Assembly (NCBI GenBank): GCA_015493525.1
Contig: WGCY01000037.1
Coordinates: 62,001 to 126,000, forward strand
Origin: Bacteroidales bacterium
GTDB taxonomy: Bacteria > Bacteroidota > Bacteroidia > Bacteroidales > F082
Direction: 5' to 3'
DNA length: 64,000 bases
Part shown: positions 3,945 to 56,138 of the stretch, piece after piece
How the letters are laid out: every line of letters starts with the position of its first letter
How positions within the stretch are numbered: position 1 is the stretch's first letter
Position numbers and translations under genes: made by a program
Notes under the pieces: model-generated
Told to the model about the DNA's origin: nothing
Databases searched by the model: none
The model's input: the letters and a program-made list of their open reading frames with translations, nothing else

Positions 3945-4101
3945 AAATTTTTAATCCCTGTCAACCAATACAATACATAAGGGACAAGGAGGTTTAAAAC
4001 CGCTTAACGTATCATACATAGCTGATTAAAAAGCCTTAACAAAAAATAAATATTTTTTGTTAAATAATTAACTATAATAAATTCCGCAACAAAATTAATA
4101 A

Positions 4102-4109
4102 TACTTTTG
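4102..4109 (+). promoter_or_regulatory. -7 promoter element for the pta operon
   Basis: TACTTTTG matches TAnnTTTG and lies 28 bases before the pta ATG in a very AT-rich leader (4020-4137). No -33 TTTG is present at the expected distance. Confidence 0.55.
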
Positions 4110-4137
4110 CAGCAGTTTTATTAAAAGTAAATTCAAT

Positions 4138-5151
4138 ATGGAATTAATCAGTAAAATACATGAAATGGCCCGTCAGGCGGGGAAAACAATTGTCCTGCCC
4201 GAAGGGAATGAAGAGCGAAACCTTCGCGCTGCCGACCATGTCCTGAAAGAAAACATTGCTTCCCTCATTTTGTTGGGAAACAAAGAGGAAATTTTGGGCA
4301 AAGCCGCCACCTACGGCTTACAAAATATGGAAAAAGCCACAATAATTGACCCCAAAGACCATCCCCAAAAAGAGTATTATGCCCGTATGCTGGCAGATAT
4401 CCGCAAGAAAAAAGGGATGACTTTCGACGAAGCCATAAAACTGGTGGAAGAGCCGTTATATCTTTCCACCTTGCTCATCAAAGATGGGAAAGCGGATGGC
4501 GAGGTCAGTGGTGCCGAACATGCCACCGGCGATGTGCTGCGCCCTGCTTTTCAGATTATTAAAACCTTGCCCGGAGTAAGCGCAGTCTCGGGTGCATTTA
4601 TTATGATTTTGAAAGACAAGAATTTTGGGACGGATGGTGTTATGGTTTTCGCCGACTGTGCCGTAAACCCTGACCCTTCGGTACGTGAACTGGCCGAAAT
4701 TGCCGTCGAATCGGCCAAAACAGCCAAAAATATTGCCGGCATCGAACCTCTTGTGGCCATGCTGAGTTTCTCAACCAAAGGCAGTGCAAAACACGAAAAA
4801 GTGGACAAGGTAGTGGAAGCCATGGCCATAGCCAAAGAGATGAACCCTTCGTTACAAATTGATGGGGAATTGCAGGCTGATGCCGCCATTATTGAGGCCA
4901 TCGGCCAAAAGAAAGCTCCCGGTTCAGCCATTGCAGGAAAAGCCAATGTGTTGGTGTTTCCCTCGCTCGAATCCGGAAATATTGCTTACAAACTGGTCCA
5001 GCGCCTTGCAGGTGCCGAAGCCGTTGGCCCTGTTTTACAAGGACTTGCAGCCCCCATCAACGATTTGTCGCGCGGTTGTTCCGTGGACGACATTGTCAAT
5101 ATGATAGCCATTACTGCCAACCAGGCCAACGGGCTGTACGGTGATAAATAA
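4138..5151 (+). CDS. pta: Phosphate acetyltransferase
   Basis: Pta interconverts acetyl-CoA and acetyl phosphate; with acetate kinase it makes ATP from acetyl-CoA in the cytoplasm. The 337 residues match the short single-domain Pta form. Visible family motifs are IVLPEGNEERNLRAAD near the N terminus, DGEVSGAEHATGDVLRPA (about residues 120-137), the central SFSTKGSAKHEKVDKV, DGELQADAAI, and NVLVFPSLESGNIAYKLVQR with GPVLQGLAAPINDLSRG at the C terminus. It is the first gene of a three-gene operon ending in ackA. Phosphate butyryltransferase is a less likely reading because the Pta-specific C-terminal block is intact. Confidence 0.95.
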   Translation: MELISKIHEMARQAGKTIVLPEGNEERNLRAADHVLKENIASLILLGNKEEILGKAATYGLQNMEKATIIDPKDHPQKEYYARMLADIRKKKGMTFDEAIKLVEEPLYLSTLLIKDGKADGEVSGAEHATGDVLRPAFQIIKTLPGVSAVSGAFIMILKDKNFGTDGVMVFADCAVNPDPSVRELAEIAVESAKTAKNIAGIEPLVAMLSFSTKGSAKHEKVDKVVEAMAIAKEMNPSLQIDGELQADAAIIEAIGQKKAPGSAIAGKANVLVFPSLESGNIAYKLVQRLAGAEAVGPVLQGLAAPINDLSRGCSVDDIVNMIAITANQANGLYGDK

Positions 5152-52760: not shown

Positions 52761-54530
52761 ATGAAACAAATTTCCTATGATGCACAAAAATTCTTCGATT
52801 TGAAGGAGTTTGTCCTGAACGTAAAATCTTACCAAGAAGCCGTGGCCGGATTTAAATGGCCGCGGATTACCAAATTCAACTGGGCTTTGGATTATTTTGA
52901 TGTCATCGCCGAAGGCAACGATAAACCGGCGTTAATCTTTGCCGATGTTGATGGTGCCGAAGAAACCGTTACCTACGATGAGATGATGAAACGATCGAAC
53001 CAGGTAGCCAACTTTCTCAGTGATTTAGGCCTTGAAAAAGGTGACCGGGTGATGTTGATGATGGACACTTCTGTTGAGATATATGAATTGTTTCTCGGAA
53101 TTATGAAAGCCGGTGGTGCCATTATTCCGGCTTCCACGCTGCTGTCGCCGGCCGATGTTTCCGACAGGATTATCCGGGGGGATGTAAAATTTGTTGTGGC
53201 CCATGACAAATATATCGACCGTGTGGATGAAGCCGGCGATGCACTGTTTCGCCTCAAGGGACTTGTCTGCGTTAAGCCTCCGGAAAACAAATGCCATTGC
53301 GAAAACAAAGAAAATATCCCCTGCTGGGTCGATTACAGGGAATATGAAAACTATGATGAAACTTTTGAAACAAATTTTATCACTTACACCTCTGATATCC
53401 TGTTCTTATTTTTCACTTCAGGAACTACTTCCAAGCCTAAACTGGTCATGCACCCGCATCACTATCCTGTCGGGCATCTTACCACCATGTATTGGCTCGA
53501 TTTGAAACCTGACGATGTACACTACAACATCAGTTCGCCGGGATGGGCCAAGTTTTTATGGAGTAGTTTTATTGCTCCATGGAATGCCGGATGTACTGCT
53601 TTCACATTAAAATATGACCAGTTTGATCCGGACAAGGTATTGGATGCCATGGAAAAATACAAAATTACCAGCCTTTGTGCCCCCCTTAGCGTCTGGAAAC
53701 TTTTCGGCAGCAGGGATTTTGCCAAATACAATTTCTCCCTGAAGAAAATGGTCAGCGCAGGCGAACCGGTTAATCCCGAAATCAGTAAAATGGCCAAAGA
53801 GCTGACCGGGATTGAATTGAGAGAGGGTTACGGCCAAACGGAAACCACTGCTATGATAGGAACATTCCCGGGAATGGCGACCAAACCCGGTTCCATCGGA
53901 AAGATAGCACCGGGCTACGAAGTAAAAATCCTGGATGCCCGGCTCGATGAGGTGGAACGTGGAAAAGATGGGCAAATTTGCTGCGCCATTTACCCCGTGA
54001 AACCTATGGGACTACTCACAGCTTACGAAGACCCGCAGCGCAACAAGGATATTTTTAAAGGCGGCTGGTACCTTACCGGTGATACGGCTTTCATGGATAA
54101 AGAAGGATTTGTTCACTTTGTGGGCCGTGTGGACGATGTGTTTAAAAGTCTCGATTACCGTATCAGTCCCTTTGAGGTTGAGAGTGAAATTATTGAAAAT
54201 CAGGCTGTACTGGAAGTAGGCGTTATTCCCACAGTGGACAAAAAAGACCGTATTGTTCCCAAGGCGTTTATCGTGTTGAACCAGGAATACACACCCAACA
54301 GGAAGATGGCCCTGGAAATTTTCCGTTATATCCGCGACCATATGGCACCTTACAAACGTCCGCGTTCCATCGAATTTATGGATGAATTTCCGAAAACCAT
54401 CAGTTCCAAAGTCATGCGCAAAGACCTGCGTGCTTATGATGAAGAACTCCGGCGTACAGGAAAAACCGGGAAATATGAGTTCTTTGAGTCAGATTTTGCC
54501 CAGGAACTAAACCTGAGAAAGAGAAAATAA
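52761..54530 (+). CDS. AMP-forming acyl-CoA synthetase (medium-chain type)
   Basis: A 589-residue adenylate-forming ligase that makes acyl-CoA from a carboxylate, ATP and CoA. Motifs in order are the phosphate loop FFTSGTTSKPKLVMH (about residues 220-235), YNISSPGWAKFLWSSFIAPW, the adenine and acyl block LREGYGQTETT, YLTGDTAFMDKEGFVHFVGRVDD, the hinge DYRISPFEVESE, and the catalytic lysine in KTISSKVMRKDLR. Two usually conserved Gly residues are Ser here (TTSKPK, SSK). The closest general type is the medium-chain ACSM/acetate-propionate branch; the substrate is unresolved. It is a single gene. Confidence 0.92.
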   Translation: MKQISYDAQKFFDLKEFVLNVKSYQEAVAGFKWPRITKFNWALDYFDVIAEGNDKPALIFADVDGAEETVTYDEMMKRSNQVANFLSDLGLEKGDRVMLMMDTSVEIYELFLGIMKAGGAIIPASTLLSPADVSDRIIRGDVKFVVAHDKYIDRVDEAGDALFRLKGLVCVKPPENKCHCENKENIPCWVDYREYENYDETFETNFITYTSDILFLFFTSGTTSKPKLVMHPHHYPVGHLTTMYWLDLKPDDVHYNISSPGWAKFLWSSFIAPWNAGCTAFTLKYDQFDPDKVLDAMEKYKITSLCAPLSVWKLFGSRDFAKYNFSLKKMVSAGEPVNPEISKMAKELTGIELREGYGQTETTAMIGTFPGMATKPGSIGKIAPGYEVKILDARLDEVERGKDGQICCAIYPVKPMGLLTAYEDPQRNKDIFKGGWYLTGDTAFMDKEGFVHFVGRVDDVFKSLDYRISPFEVESEIIENQAVLEVGVIPTVDKKDRIVPKAFIVLNQEYTPNRKMALEIFRYIRDHMAPYKRPRSIEFMDEFPKTISSKVMRKDLRAYDEELRRTGKTGKYEFFESDFAQELNLRKRK

Positions 54531-54548: not shown

Positions 54549-54695
54549 TAGCCACGAATTCACGAATAAATTTTTTTACAGCAAGTGCCATTCGTGTATT
54601 CGTGGCAACTGTTCCGTGCTCCCAATACTTGTCATTCGTGAATTCGTGGCAGCTGTTCCGCACTTCCAATAATTGTCATTCGTGAATTCGTGGCA
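54549..54695 (+). repeat. Left repeat array, three 44-bp-period units with inverted leader
   Basis: An inverted leader GCCACGAATTCACGAAT (54551-54567) is followed, 22 bases on, by three cores ATTCGTGwATTCGTGGC at 54590-54606, 54634-54650 and 54678-54694. The period is exactly 44 and the 27-base linkers are similar to one another. Leader and first core can form a 17-bp hairpin with one mismatch. The same plan recurs beyond the neighbouring gene at 55201-55443. Confidence 0.92.
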
Positions 54696-54734
54696 GATAC
54701 CATTTCTGGTTTGTGGCAAGCCTTTCTTTGAGGA

Positions 54735-55109
54735 TTACAATACAATTCGTTGGAAGTCCAGCTTTTCGGGGCTGAAGTTTACAAGGAGTGCCAGCTTATT
54801 TCCTGAAACCTTCAAATAGTTCAGGGCCTGGGCTATATATTTATCGGCCATTTCGGATGTGGACTTTACTTCGAGGATTATTTTGCCATAGACCACAAAA
54901 TCTGCATAGAATTTATGAGGCAAGGTAATATCCTTATAAATGACCTTGTATTCTTTTTCCCGTTCAAACGGAATGTTGGCTTTCCGAAACTCATATTCCA
55001 GTGCATCTTTATAAACAATCTCCAGAAATCCGTTGCCAAGGGTATTATAAACTTCATAACATTTGCCAATGATGTTATAACTCTCTTCCCTGTAAATAAT
55101 TTTGTCCAT
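54735..55109 (-). CDS. GxxExxY family protein (PD-(D/E)XK nuclease-like)
   Basis: A 124-residue protein of the GxxExxY family, related by fold to PD-(D/E)XK nucleases. The name motif is G27-F-L-E30-I-V-Y33. The nuclease core is visible as D70 (FYADFVVYGK) and E80-V-K82 (ILEVKS), with a following helix carrying QALNYLK (Q94 to K100). All metal-site residues are present, so it may be catalytic. The biological role of the family is not established. The gene is the only one between two direct copies of a repeat array, which suggests it acts on, or spreads with, those repeats. Confidence 0.9.
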   Translation of the reverse strand: MDKIIYREESYNIIGKCYEVYNTLGNGFLEIVYKDALEYEFRKANIPFEREKEYKVIYKDITLPHKFYADFVVYGKIILEVKSTSEMADKYIAQALNYLKVSGNKLALLVNFSPEKLDFQRIVL

Positions 55110-55200
55110 GATTTTAGGTTTTAATTGGTTCTCTCATCTGCTACACTTTATGTAAATAATTGCTATCCACCCGATTGCTAAATTACAACTTTTATTTGAT

Positions 55201-55443
55201 TAGCCACGAATTCACAAATGTATTTTTATTTACAGCAAGTACCATTCGTGCATTCGTGGCCATAATTATTCCCGTACTTCCAAAAATTGCCATTCGTGTA
55301 TTCGTGGCAGCTGTTCCGTTCTCCCAACAATTATTATTCGTGTATTCGTGGCAGCTGTTCCGTTCTCCCAACAATTGTTATTCGTGTATCCGTGGCAGCT
55401 TTTCCGCACTTCCAATAATTGTTATTCGTGTATTCGTGGCAGC
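55201..55443 (+). repeat. Right repeat array, five units with the same inverted leader
   Basis: The leader GCCACGAATTCACAAAT (55203-55219) is followed by cores at 55244-55260, 55292-55308, 55336-55352, 55380-55396 and 55424-55440. The first interval is 48 and the others are 44. The leader, the TTTACAGCAAGT spacer and the first core match the left array in the same orientation, so the two arrays are direct copies that differ in unit number. Confidence 0.92.
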
Positions 55444-55535: not shown

Positions 55536-56138
55536 ATGGACATCAACAGGGAAGAAATCACAGGAATTATCCTTGCGGGAGGCAGAAGCAGCCGGTTGGG
55601 AAAAGACAAAGGGCTATGCTCATTCAGGAACAAGCCGCTGGTATCGTATGCCATTGATATTTTAAAGCCCCTTTGCGGAAAGATGATGATTTCGGCCAAC
55701 CATTTTCCTGAAAAATATGCTGCGTTTGGTTTTCCTGTTATTCCCGACGAGGTCAAAAATATTGGCCCCATGGGTGGTGTTCTCTCCTGCCTGAAAAAAT
55801 CAAGAACACAGTACAACCTCATTCTTTCGTGTGATACACCTTTTGTAAACACAGATGTTTTCCGTCTTCTGCTAAAAAAAATGGAAAATTTCCAGGTGGT
55901 TTGTCCATCGCACGAGACTTTTCTTCTGGAGCCCCTGAGTGCCTGTTACAACACCAATGTCGTAAGTGAACTGGAAGAAGCCGTCCGCAATAAAGAGTAC
56001 AAAATGATGCAGTTTTTTAAACGTATCCGCTTCAAATCGGTAAATATCGACCAAAACCTGCCTTTTTTTAGCGATAACCTCTTTTTGAACCTGAACACAC
56101 CCGATGATTTGGAAAAAGCGGAGGAGATAAGATGGTGA
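55536..56138 (+). CDS. mobA: Molybdenum cofactor guanylyltransferase
   Basis: MobA links GMP from GTP to molybdopterin for bis-MGD enzymes. The 200-residue nucleotidyltransferase has the N-terminal GTP loop GIILAGGRSSRLGKDKGLCSF, the PDEVKNIGPMGGVLSCL segment with the GP-x-GG turn, the metal Asp in LSCDTPFV and the C-terminal NLNTPDDLEKAE. The length fits. The next gene overlaps its last codons (7 bases), implying coupled translation. It lies immediately after a repeat array. Confidence 0.93.
   Translation: MDINREEITGIILAGGRSSRLGKDKGLCSFRNKPLVSYAIDILKPLCGKMMISANHFPEKYAAFGFPVIPDEVKNIGPMGGVLSCLKKSRTQYNLILSCDTPFVNTDVFRLLLKKMENFQVVCPSHETFLLEPLSACYNTNVVSELEEAVRNKEYKMMQFFKRIRFKSVNIDQNLPFFSDNLFLNLNTPDDLEKAEEIRW

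Follow-up and report, generated by a model that had tools for sequence, protein, structure and literature searches.

Among described repeat systems, the closest to the locus reported here are the REPs and REPINs with their RAYT genes. In the portions of two reports that we draw on (PMC2817692, PMC3116915), REPs flank the RAYT genes and the two co-vary; REPINs are described as extragenic inverted doublets, tandem clusters also occur, and the gene is present in single copy. The CGTC-tagged REPs, likewise palindromic, fall outside the GTAG class; they come from Bacteroidetes as well and, in the part of the source consulted (PMC3733652), are reported without a dedicated transposase. As far as these sources reach, the system described below shares with REP/REPIN-RAYT a gene bracketed by palindromic repeats, co-variation of repeat and protein, dispersed intergenic inverted doublets, tandem clusters and few copies of the gene. 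It differs in its repeat, here a doubled 7-mer with no GT(A/G)G head before a GC-rich palindrome, and in its protein: GxxExxY is a PD-(D/E)XK nuclease, whereas RAYT is a tyrosine transposase. With the CGTC-tagged REPs, as represented in that source, it has in common palindromic repeats outside the GTAG class, but its tag is different and a candidate gene is linked to the repeats. In most of the respects compared, the GxxExxY system works in a REPIN/RAYT-like manner, but it is not a member of the RAYT group because its protein has a different fold.

The locus occupies positions 54551-55440 of the window (the whole 64,000-nucleotide stretch of DNA that was analysed), where a gene of the GxxExxY / PDDEXK_3 family is located between two arrays of the core word ATTCGTGnATTCGTGGC. 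Each array is composed of one inverted core followed by direct copies, three on the left and five on the right. In the left array, the inverted leader (54551..54567, minus strand, reading GCCACGAATTCACGAAT on the plus strand) precedes plus-strand cores at 54590..54606 (its inverted partner), 54634..54650 and 54678..54694, the latter two each at a 44-bp step. The nuclease-like gene, coding for 124 aa, lies at 54735..55109 on the minus strand. The right array begins with an inverted leader carrying one mismatch (55203..55219, minus strand), followed on the plus strand by a core at 55244..55260, predicted to form a hairpin with this leader, and by further cores at 55292..55308 (48-bp step), 55336..55352 (44-bp step), 55380..55396 (44-bp step, one mismatch) and 55424..55440 (44-bp step). 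The preliminary description of this DNA had assigned a 44-bp period to both arrays, which holds for all steps but the first right-hand one, of 48 bp. All cores were located by core search, complemented by comparison of the arrays for every core but the first right-hand one, and by folding for the left array and the first right-hand pair. An AMP-binding enzyme (52761..54530, plus strand) is the left neighbour, and a MobA-like NTP transferase (55536..56138, plus strand), which served to locate empty sites, is the neighbour on the right.

The locus contains 10 core matches (up to 3 mismatches), compared to a mean of 0.55 and a maximum of 3 in 100 shuffles. Outside the cores, the arrays are homologous over a 139-nt stretch (74-83% identity) and over a 28-nt leader (89%), such that the bracketing of the gene by two like arrays with the same leader and cores, as originally noted, is confirmed by both core search and alignment. 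The word typical of the clade to which the window protein belongs (its own clade) consists of two copies of the 7-mer ATTCGTG and then GC, and is frequently found in inverted pairs able to form a hairpin; folded as single-stranded DNA and compared with shuffles, the left array has a z of -4.5 and the first right-hand pair a z of -4.6. A search for known RNA families at the locus produced one match only (E 0.8), far under its gathering score. A CRISPR array was considered and ruled out: the locus is unlike one because its inter-core sequences are copies of one another, and its nearest neighbours are the AMP-binding and MobA-like genes, neither of them a cas gene.

The window protein scores 134.5 bits against TIGR04256 (GxxExxY; cut-off 35) and 120.1 bits against PF13366 (PDDEXK_3; cut-off 22), and thus belongs to the GxxExxY family, membership being defined by a profile score over the curated cut-off. 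At E 0.001, these are the only profiles in NCBIfam and Pfam, respectively, that match it, with none of RAYT type; the protein is not an IS200/IS605-type tyrosine transposase, its best fold matches being nucleases. Among 231 aligned family members, E30, D70, E80 and K82 are each 97-99% conserved, and further conserved residues are Y98 (97%) and Q94 (89%). The intact 124-aa gene with its four putative active-site residues, as first described, is therefore upheld by the profiles and the family alignment. An AlphaFold2 model (pLDDT 96, built from 58 sequences) has as its best solved fold 4ic1 (SSO0001; E 2.8e-5, TM 0.62), which we take to be a Cas4 nuclease, followed by LHK-Exo and lambda exonuclease; these top matches, the exonucleases, are presumably members of the PD-(D/E)XK superfamily. 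The conserved residues and the model together place E, D and ExK in the fold as a PD-(D/E)XK active site requires. The search for a sequence relative with a solved structure returned a single match, at a non-credible E of 0.6.

Because the top folds are 4ic1, LHK-Exo and lambda exonuclease, and the Cas4b profile gives a weak match (E 0.015), the window protein is, by its modelled fold, a small nuclease of the Cas4/RecB type, with predicted activity. Cas4 and RecB-type nucleases carry a QxxxY motif, which the conserved Q94 and Y98 of the window protein resemble. Unlike Cas4, the protein is just 124 aa in length, its gene has two neighbours that are not cas genes, and the sequences between the cores are copies instead of diverse spacers.

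The pairing of core and gene was assessed in 80 own-clade loci, the best of 279 confirmed stretches, which derive from genomes of named species and code for proteins 62-98% identical to the window protein (6 of the 80 contigs also belong to the set of 60 relatives used below). In 48 of these loci, an exact 16-base core is found no more than 600 bp from the gene; the other 32 have none at that distance. Near the genes there are 162 matches in 91,599 bp versus 22 in 518,545 bp of far sequence, where the density per base is approximately 42-fold lower; the reversed core pattern, as a control, yielded no match near or far in the same 80-locus sequence. Where both flanks extend at least 150 bp (75 loci), cores occur on both sides in 25, on one side in 20 and on neither in 30. 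The preliminary description had proposed to test whether cores are concentrated near GxxExxY genes, and at 600 bp in own-clade loci they are; it had also held that genes without nearby cores, or cores without the gene, would speak against a link. Both are encountered, the former in the 32 loci just mentioned, and the latter in 7 of 14 core-bearing relatives and 2 of 10 core-bearing genomes of the phylum-wide set (see below), in which no own-clade gene was found, while the rest have one.

The unit as a whole is present in some congeners and absent from others. All 12 genomes of the genus possess the MobA-like gene, and in five of them (G001, G002, G003, G005 and G007) the AMP-binding gene directly precedes it, at a gap of 99-272 bp which has no room for a GxxExxY gene and contains nothing under 5 mismatches from the core. 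These five are empty sites of the kind that the preliminary description had proposed to look for. In G011, the gene and cores are found before the MobA-like gene (91% identity over the gene, one mismatch in the left core, and extra sequence), and the contig stops before the left neighbour; in the remaining five genomes the site has other neighbours or coincides with contig ends. The empty site of G002 (L249) bears a different repeat, of the GCGAGGGCTTC and GAAGCCCTTGC type, without a GxxExxY gene.

Copying of the cassette is evident at one locus of the 80 (L190, from Lentimicrobium), in which direct cassette copies occur about 480 bp to either side of the gene at 4095-4466. Two of the L190 copies hold an internally deleted gene between their cores (residues 1-27 and 102-118 in one, 1-28 and 106-124 in the other), and thereby resemble miniature derivatives of a transposable element. 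More generally, the two flanks of one gene contain matching sequence in 55 of the 72 named loci (direct 49, inverted 30) and in 54 of 80 loci of the relatives (direct 42, inverted 29), the corresponding figures being 4 of 25 for ParE loci and 1 of 45 for far pairs. When the 14 longest flank matches per set are considered, 13 are direct in the named loci and all 14 in the relatives; in this the system is unlike RAYT genes, which are said, in the parts of that literature consulted, to be flanked by inverted REPs.

The genome from which the window derives contains three GxxExxY genes, and no repeated word is common to any two of them. The core is absent, at up to 4 mismatches, beside the other two genes, which have their own repeats nearby (CACGAAGGG and CACTAAGGG for one gene, ACGCAAAGA for the second). 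Outside the locus, this genome has cores in four places (one exact, the other three with a single mismatch), and none of the contigs concerned carries a GxxExxY gene; two of the four (L010 and L011) are imperfect inverted pairs.

The relationship between word and protein was examined in 171 proteins, reduced to 167 by discarding identical ones (possibly leaving a few near-duplicates), and 32 pairs with a common 25-mer in their flanks were excluded from the identity comparison. A repeated 9-mer is common to about 1% of pairs when the proteins are 20-40% identical, and to 55% when their identity exceeds 70%. Among 91 proteins from the relatives, pairs with at least 3 repeated words in common have a mean identity of 64.5% versus 39.5% upon permutation (0 of 2000 permutations as high, kinship being uncorrected). 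Among the 86 own-clade members, 50 carry repeated copies of ATTCGTGGC, and none of the 81 others does. When proteins of at least 60% identity are assigned to the same clade and those below 50% to different clades, a repeated word is held in common by 89 of 211 same-clade pairs from different genomes versus 1 of 106 different-clade pairs from one genome (95 of 217 versus 1 of 106 without the 25-mer exclusion). On these sequence comparisons, the repeated word follows the clade of the protein and not the host. The core word originally put forward for GxxExxY is thus valid for the own clade but too narrow for the family, as ATTCGTGnATTCGTGGC is limited to one clade and the others have other words.

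These data bear directly on an alternative explanation, under which a RAYT or an IS mobilises the repeats, these being REP-like elements of the host, and the GxxExxY gene rides along as a passenger, inserting into such arrays or being selected in their vicinity. Such an origin would account for the cores in genomes without a detectable own-clade gene, for the situation in G207 (48 cores genome-wide, yet the flanks of its own-clade gene are at least 5 of 15 bases off the core), and for the fact that genes of TIGR02436 also lie among repeats. The 89 of 211 versus 1 of 106 pairs, on the other hand, count against a host-determined repeat into which genes merely insert, as do the three GxxExxY genes of a single genome with no repeated word in common and the pieces of the L190 gene that were copied along with the cores. 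We therefore consider a passenger gene unlikely.

Cores are also dispersed in genomes, away from the gene. In a set of 218 genomes drawn across the phylum, with the own-clade gene called at E up to 1e-35, 10 genomes contain the 16-base core and 21 the gene; the gene is present in 8 of the 10 core-bearing genomes versus 13 of the 208 core-free ones (p 7e-8), the latter 13 being those of the 21 gene-bearing genomes with no exact core anywhere. Where both are present, four genomes (G000, G370, G388 and G352) have an exact core no further than 600 bp from the examined gene, while in the other four (G207, G306, G356 and G384) its flanks are 4 to 6 of 15 bases off the core. In G207, the own-clade gene (L398, G207:C1), with no core within 600 bp, is bracketed by GCCACAGATT ... 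AATCTGTGGC. Among the 60 relatives, the core occurs in every one of the 7 genomes whose own-clade gene is of the LPHKFF/Y type, versus 7 of 53 others (p 9e-6), or in 7 of 9 versus 7 of 51 (p 2e-4) when G029 and G047, which have more distant own-clade genes, are added; in 6 of the 7 relatives with the LPHKFF/Y type, the exception being G010, a core is within 500 bp of the gene.

Three genomes of the phylum set hold 97, 48 and 43 cores. The dispersed stretches examined are mostly inverted pairs, with loops of 12 bases to approximately 200, and some are single; of 16 such stretches in G388, 10 contain at least 2 exact cores and 6 a single core. Several of the dispersed stretches examined, L378 and L386 among them, are preceded by TTTTTCCG and followed by CGGAAA. 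In a 400-kb sample of G388, 0 of 9 cores fall within ORFs of at least 110 aa versus 3359 of 4000 random positions, such that the sample exhibits the dispersed, extragenic inverted doublets with spacer by which REPINs are recognised. The bias is weaker in 24 gene-less core loci from the relatives and the own genome (8 of 36 cores in ORFs versus 1921 of 2400). No gene remnant was detected by the gene-less cores in 29 of 32 scanned core loci, some of which overlap; the other 3 contain an intact gene.

The dispersed copies are also pertinent to two more modest roles for the protein and its repeats. The nuclease could merely maintain or expand the adjacent array, by slippage or recombination at cleavage sites, and spread nothing. 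The different number of cores in the window and in its close relative G011, and the nearly uniform direct orientation of the longest flank-to-flank matches, are in keeping with this, but dozens of gene-free inverted pairs are dispersed in G388 and G352, and among congeners the unit is present or absent as a whole; we regard array upkeep as the sole function as quite unlikely. Alternatively, the hairpins could be regulatory sites of the gene (terminators or operators) with no role in mobility, as their position near the gene ends in simple loci like L181 and L405 might suggest. The same palindromes are nevertheless dispersed elsewhere in the genome, and several dispersed stems, as read on the printed strand, have T runs before and A runs after them, opposite to the arrangement in an intrinsic terminator; we regard a purely regulatory role as very improbable.

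A gene in G384 (L405, G384:C17) is bracketed by a differing word, CCGCAAATTCGCAAAT and its inverse. Dispersal of this word in G384 was predicted in advance, but the prediction failed, as no copy was found in 400 kb (about 8% of the genome), as opposed to 9 cores of the usual word in the matched G388 sample; either the word has never dispersed or the 400-kb sample is too small. L405 and two further own-clade genes, L370 (G388) and L387 (G352), seem by eye to share the same neighbour gene, the latter two being bracketed by CCACGAATTCACGAAT; the proteins are 66% identical.

Taken together, we favour, with a probability of roughly 65%, the interpretation that the gene and its two arrays constitute one selfish unit, REPIN/RAYT-like in its way of life and run by an unrelated PD-(D/E)XK nuclease that would bind, cut and thereby move its own repeats. 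The preliminary description had likewise proposed that gene and repeats form one unit, and this gains support from the cores at 48 of 80 loci, the clade-following word, the five empty sites, the L190 copies and the dispersed cores; its comparison to RAYT/REP with a different nuclease fold is similarly sustained by the pairing, the co-variation of word and protein, the empty sites and the dispersed copies. Counting against the interpretation are the 32 own-clade loci with no exact core near the gene, the 13 gene-bearing genomes with no exact core anywhere, the cores of genomes in which no own-clade gene was found, the situation in G207, the failed prediction for the G384 word and, as set out below, the equal repeat richness of TIGR02436 genes and the limited fit of the motif CRCNNAK in other clades. 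Judging from the doubled 7-mer together with the inverted pair, a doublet may be bound by two units of the protein, and the substrate may be the extruded hairpin. The nuclease would cut the palindrome in its single-stranded or extruded state, such as might arise in replication; subsequent repair or strand transfer would add, remove or spread copies, new copies elsewhere being rare. The cassette may move by the same cut-and-repair route, and gene-less palindromes would move in trans. To our knowledge, a PD-(D/E)XK nuclease alone has no joining activity.

If this interpretation is correct, the REPIN way of life arose also with an unrelated nuclease, and a nuclease without known joining activity can sustain dispersed repeats. 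The pairing offers a candidate role for a protein family that is common yet lacks a settled function, and a candidate source of intergenic repeats. The family (GxxExxY / PDDEXK_3) is hardly mentioned in the non-subscription literature searched; within the same scope, the doubled word is absent in all six spellings. Among the matches listed, no title concerned a GxxExxY-repeat pairing and, for the 9-base half words and longer forms, none dealt with such repeats by title. Abundant 7-base direct repeats, TAACTGA, are described for Beggiatoaceae in the part of a report consulted (PMC4679880), the main text of which lacks the words nuclease, four helix and palindrom. The evidence suggests a little-known selfish repeat system, resembling a known one but with a different protein.

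The wider distribution of repeats was assessed in the 60 relatives, 37 of which have GxxExxY proteins over the cut-off. Of 125 listed hits, 91 were placed on loci, fragments and some weak hits being left out, and the flank was sufficient for 85. In 38 of these 85 near flanks, some 9-mer is found four or more times within 500 bp, versus 7 of 68 far stretches and, for ParE toxin genes, 1 of 28 flanks (2 of 30 dropped for short flanks). Genes of the four-helix-bundle family TIGR02436, however, reach 16 of 27 (3 of 30 dropped) and do not differ from GxxExxY in repeat richness (rank test p 0.28). Repeat richness is hence common to a second family, and the notion that GxxExxY genes are uniquely rich in repeats was rejected.

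A motif, CRCNNAK, was derived from the relatives and set down before further genomes were examined, namely six behind own-clade loci, together with samples from the phyla to which an Acidobacteria record and a planctomycete record belong. Among 83 fetched loci, 70 were entered (fragments and weak hits being left out), 65 had enough flank and 24 carried a 9-mer at least 4 times. CRCNNAK is contained in a tied top word in 18 of these 24 (13 of 24 by the alphabetically first top word), compared to 1 of 16 TIGR02436 loci (0 of 16 by the alphabetically first). Of the 24, eight belong to the six genomes selected through their own-clade loci, and some of these genomes may fall within the same phylum in certain taxonomies; without these six genomes, the proportions are 12 of 16 (tied) and 10 of 16 (alphabetically first). 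In the relatives, CRCNNAK fits just 16 of 35 repeat-rich loci of other clades, versus the 18 of 24 in the further genomes, and is therefore a tendency and no rule; as a universal word it was rejected. At only slightly better than even odds, GxxExxY proteins would represent a second phylum-spanning class of repeat-spreading enzymes, of an evolutionary origin independent of RAYT: small Cas4/RecB-like nucleases, with every clade recognising a doubled 7-bp word of its own (often CRCNNAK), by which palindromic repeats would be generated, expanded and dispersed in Bacteroidota as well as in the phyla of the Acidobacteria and planctomycete records. The TIGR02436 loci (L215-L244) have different words, CCAATAGCCAA, AGTCGGGAGTC and CCAAAGACCAA among them, and TIGR02436 is possibly a second protein family with repeats of its own.
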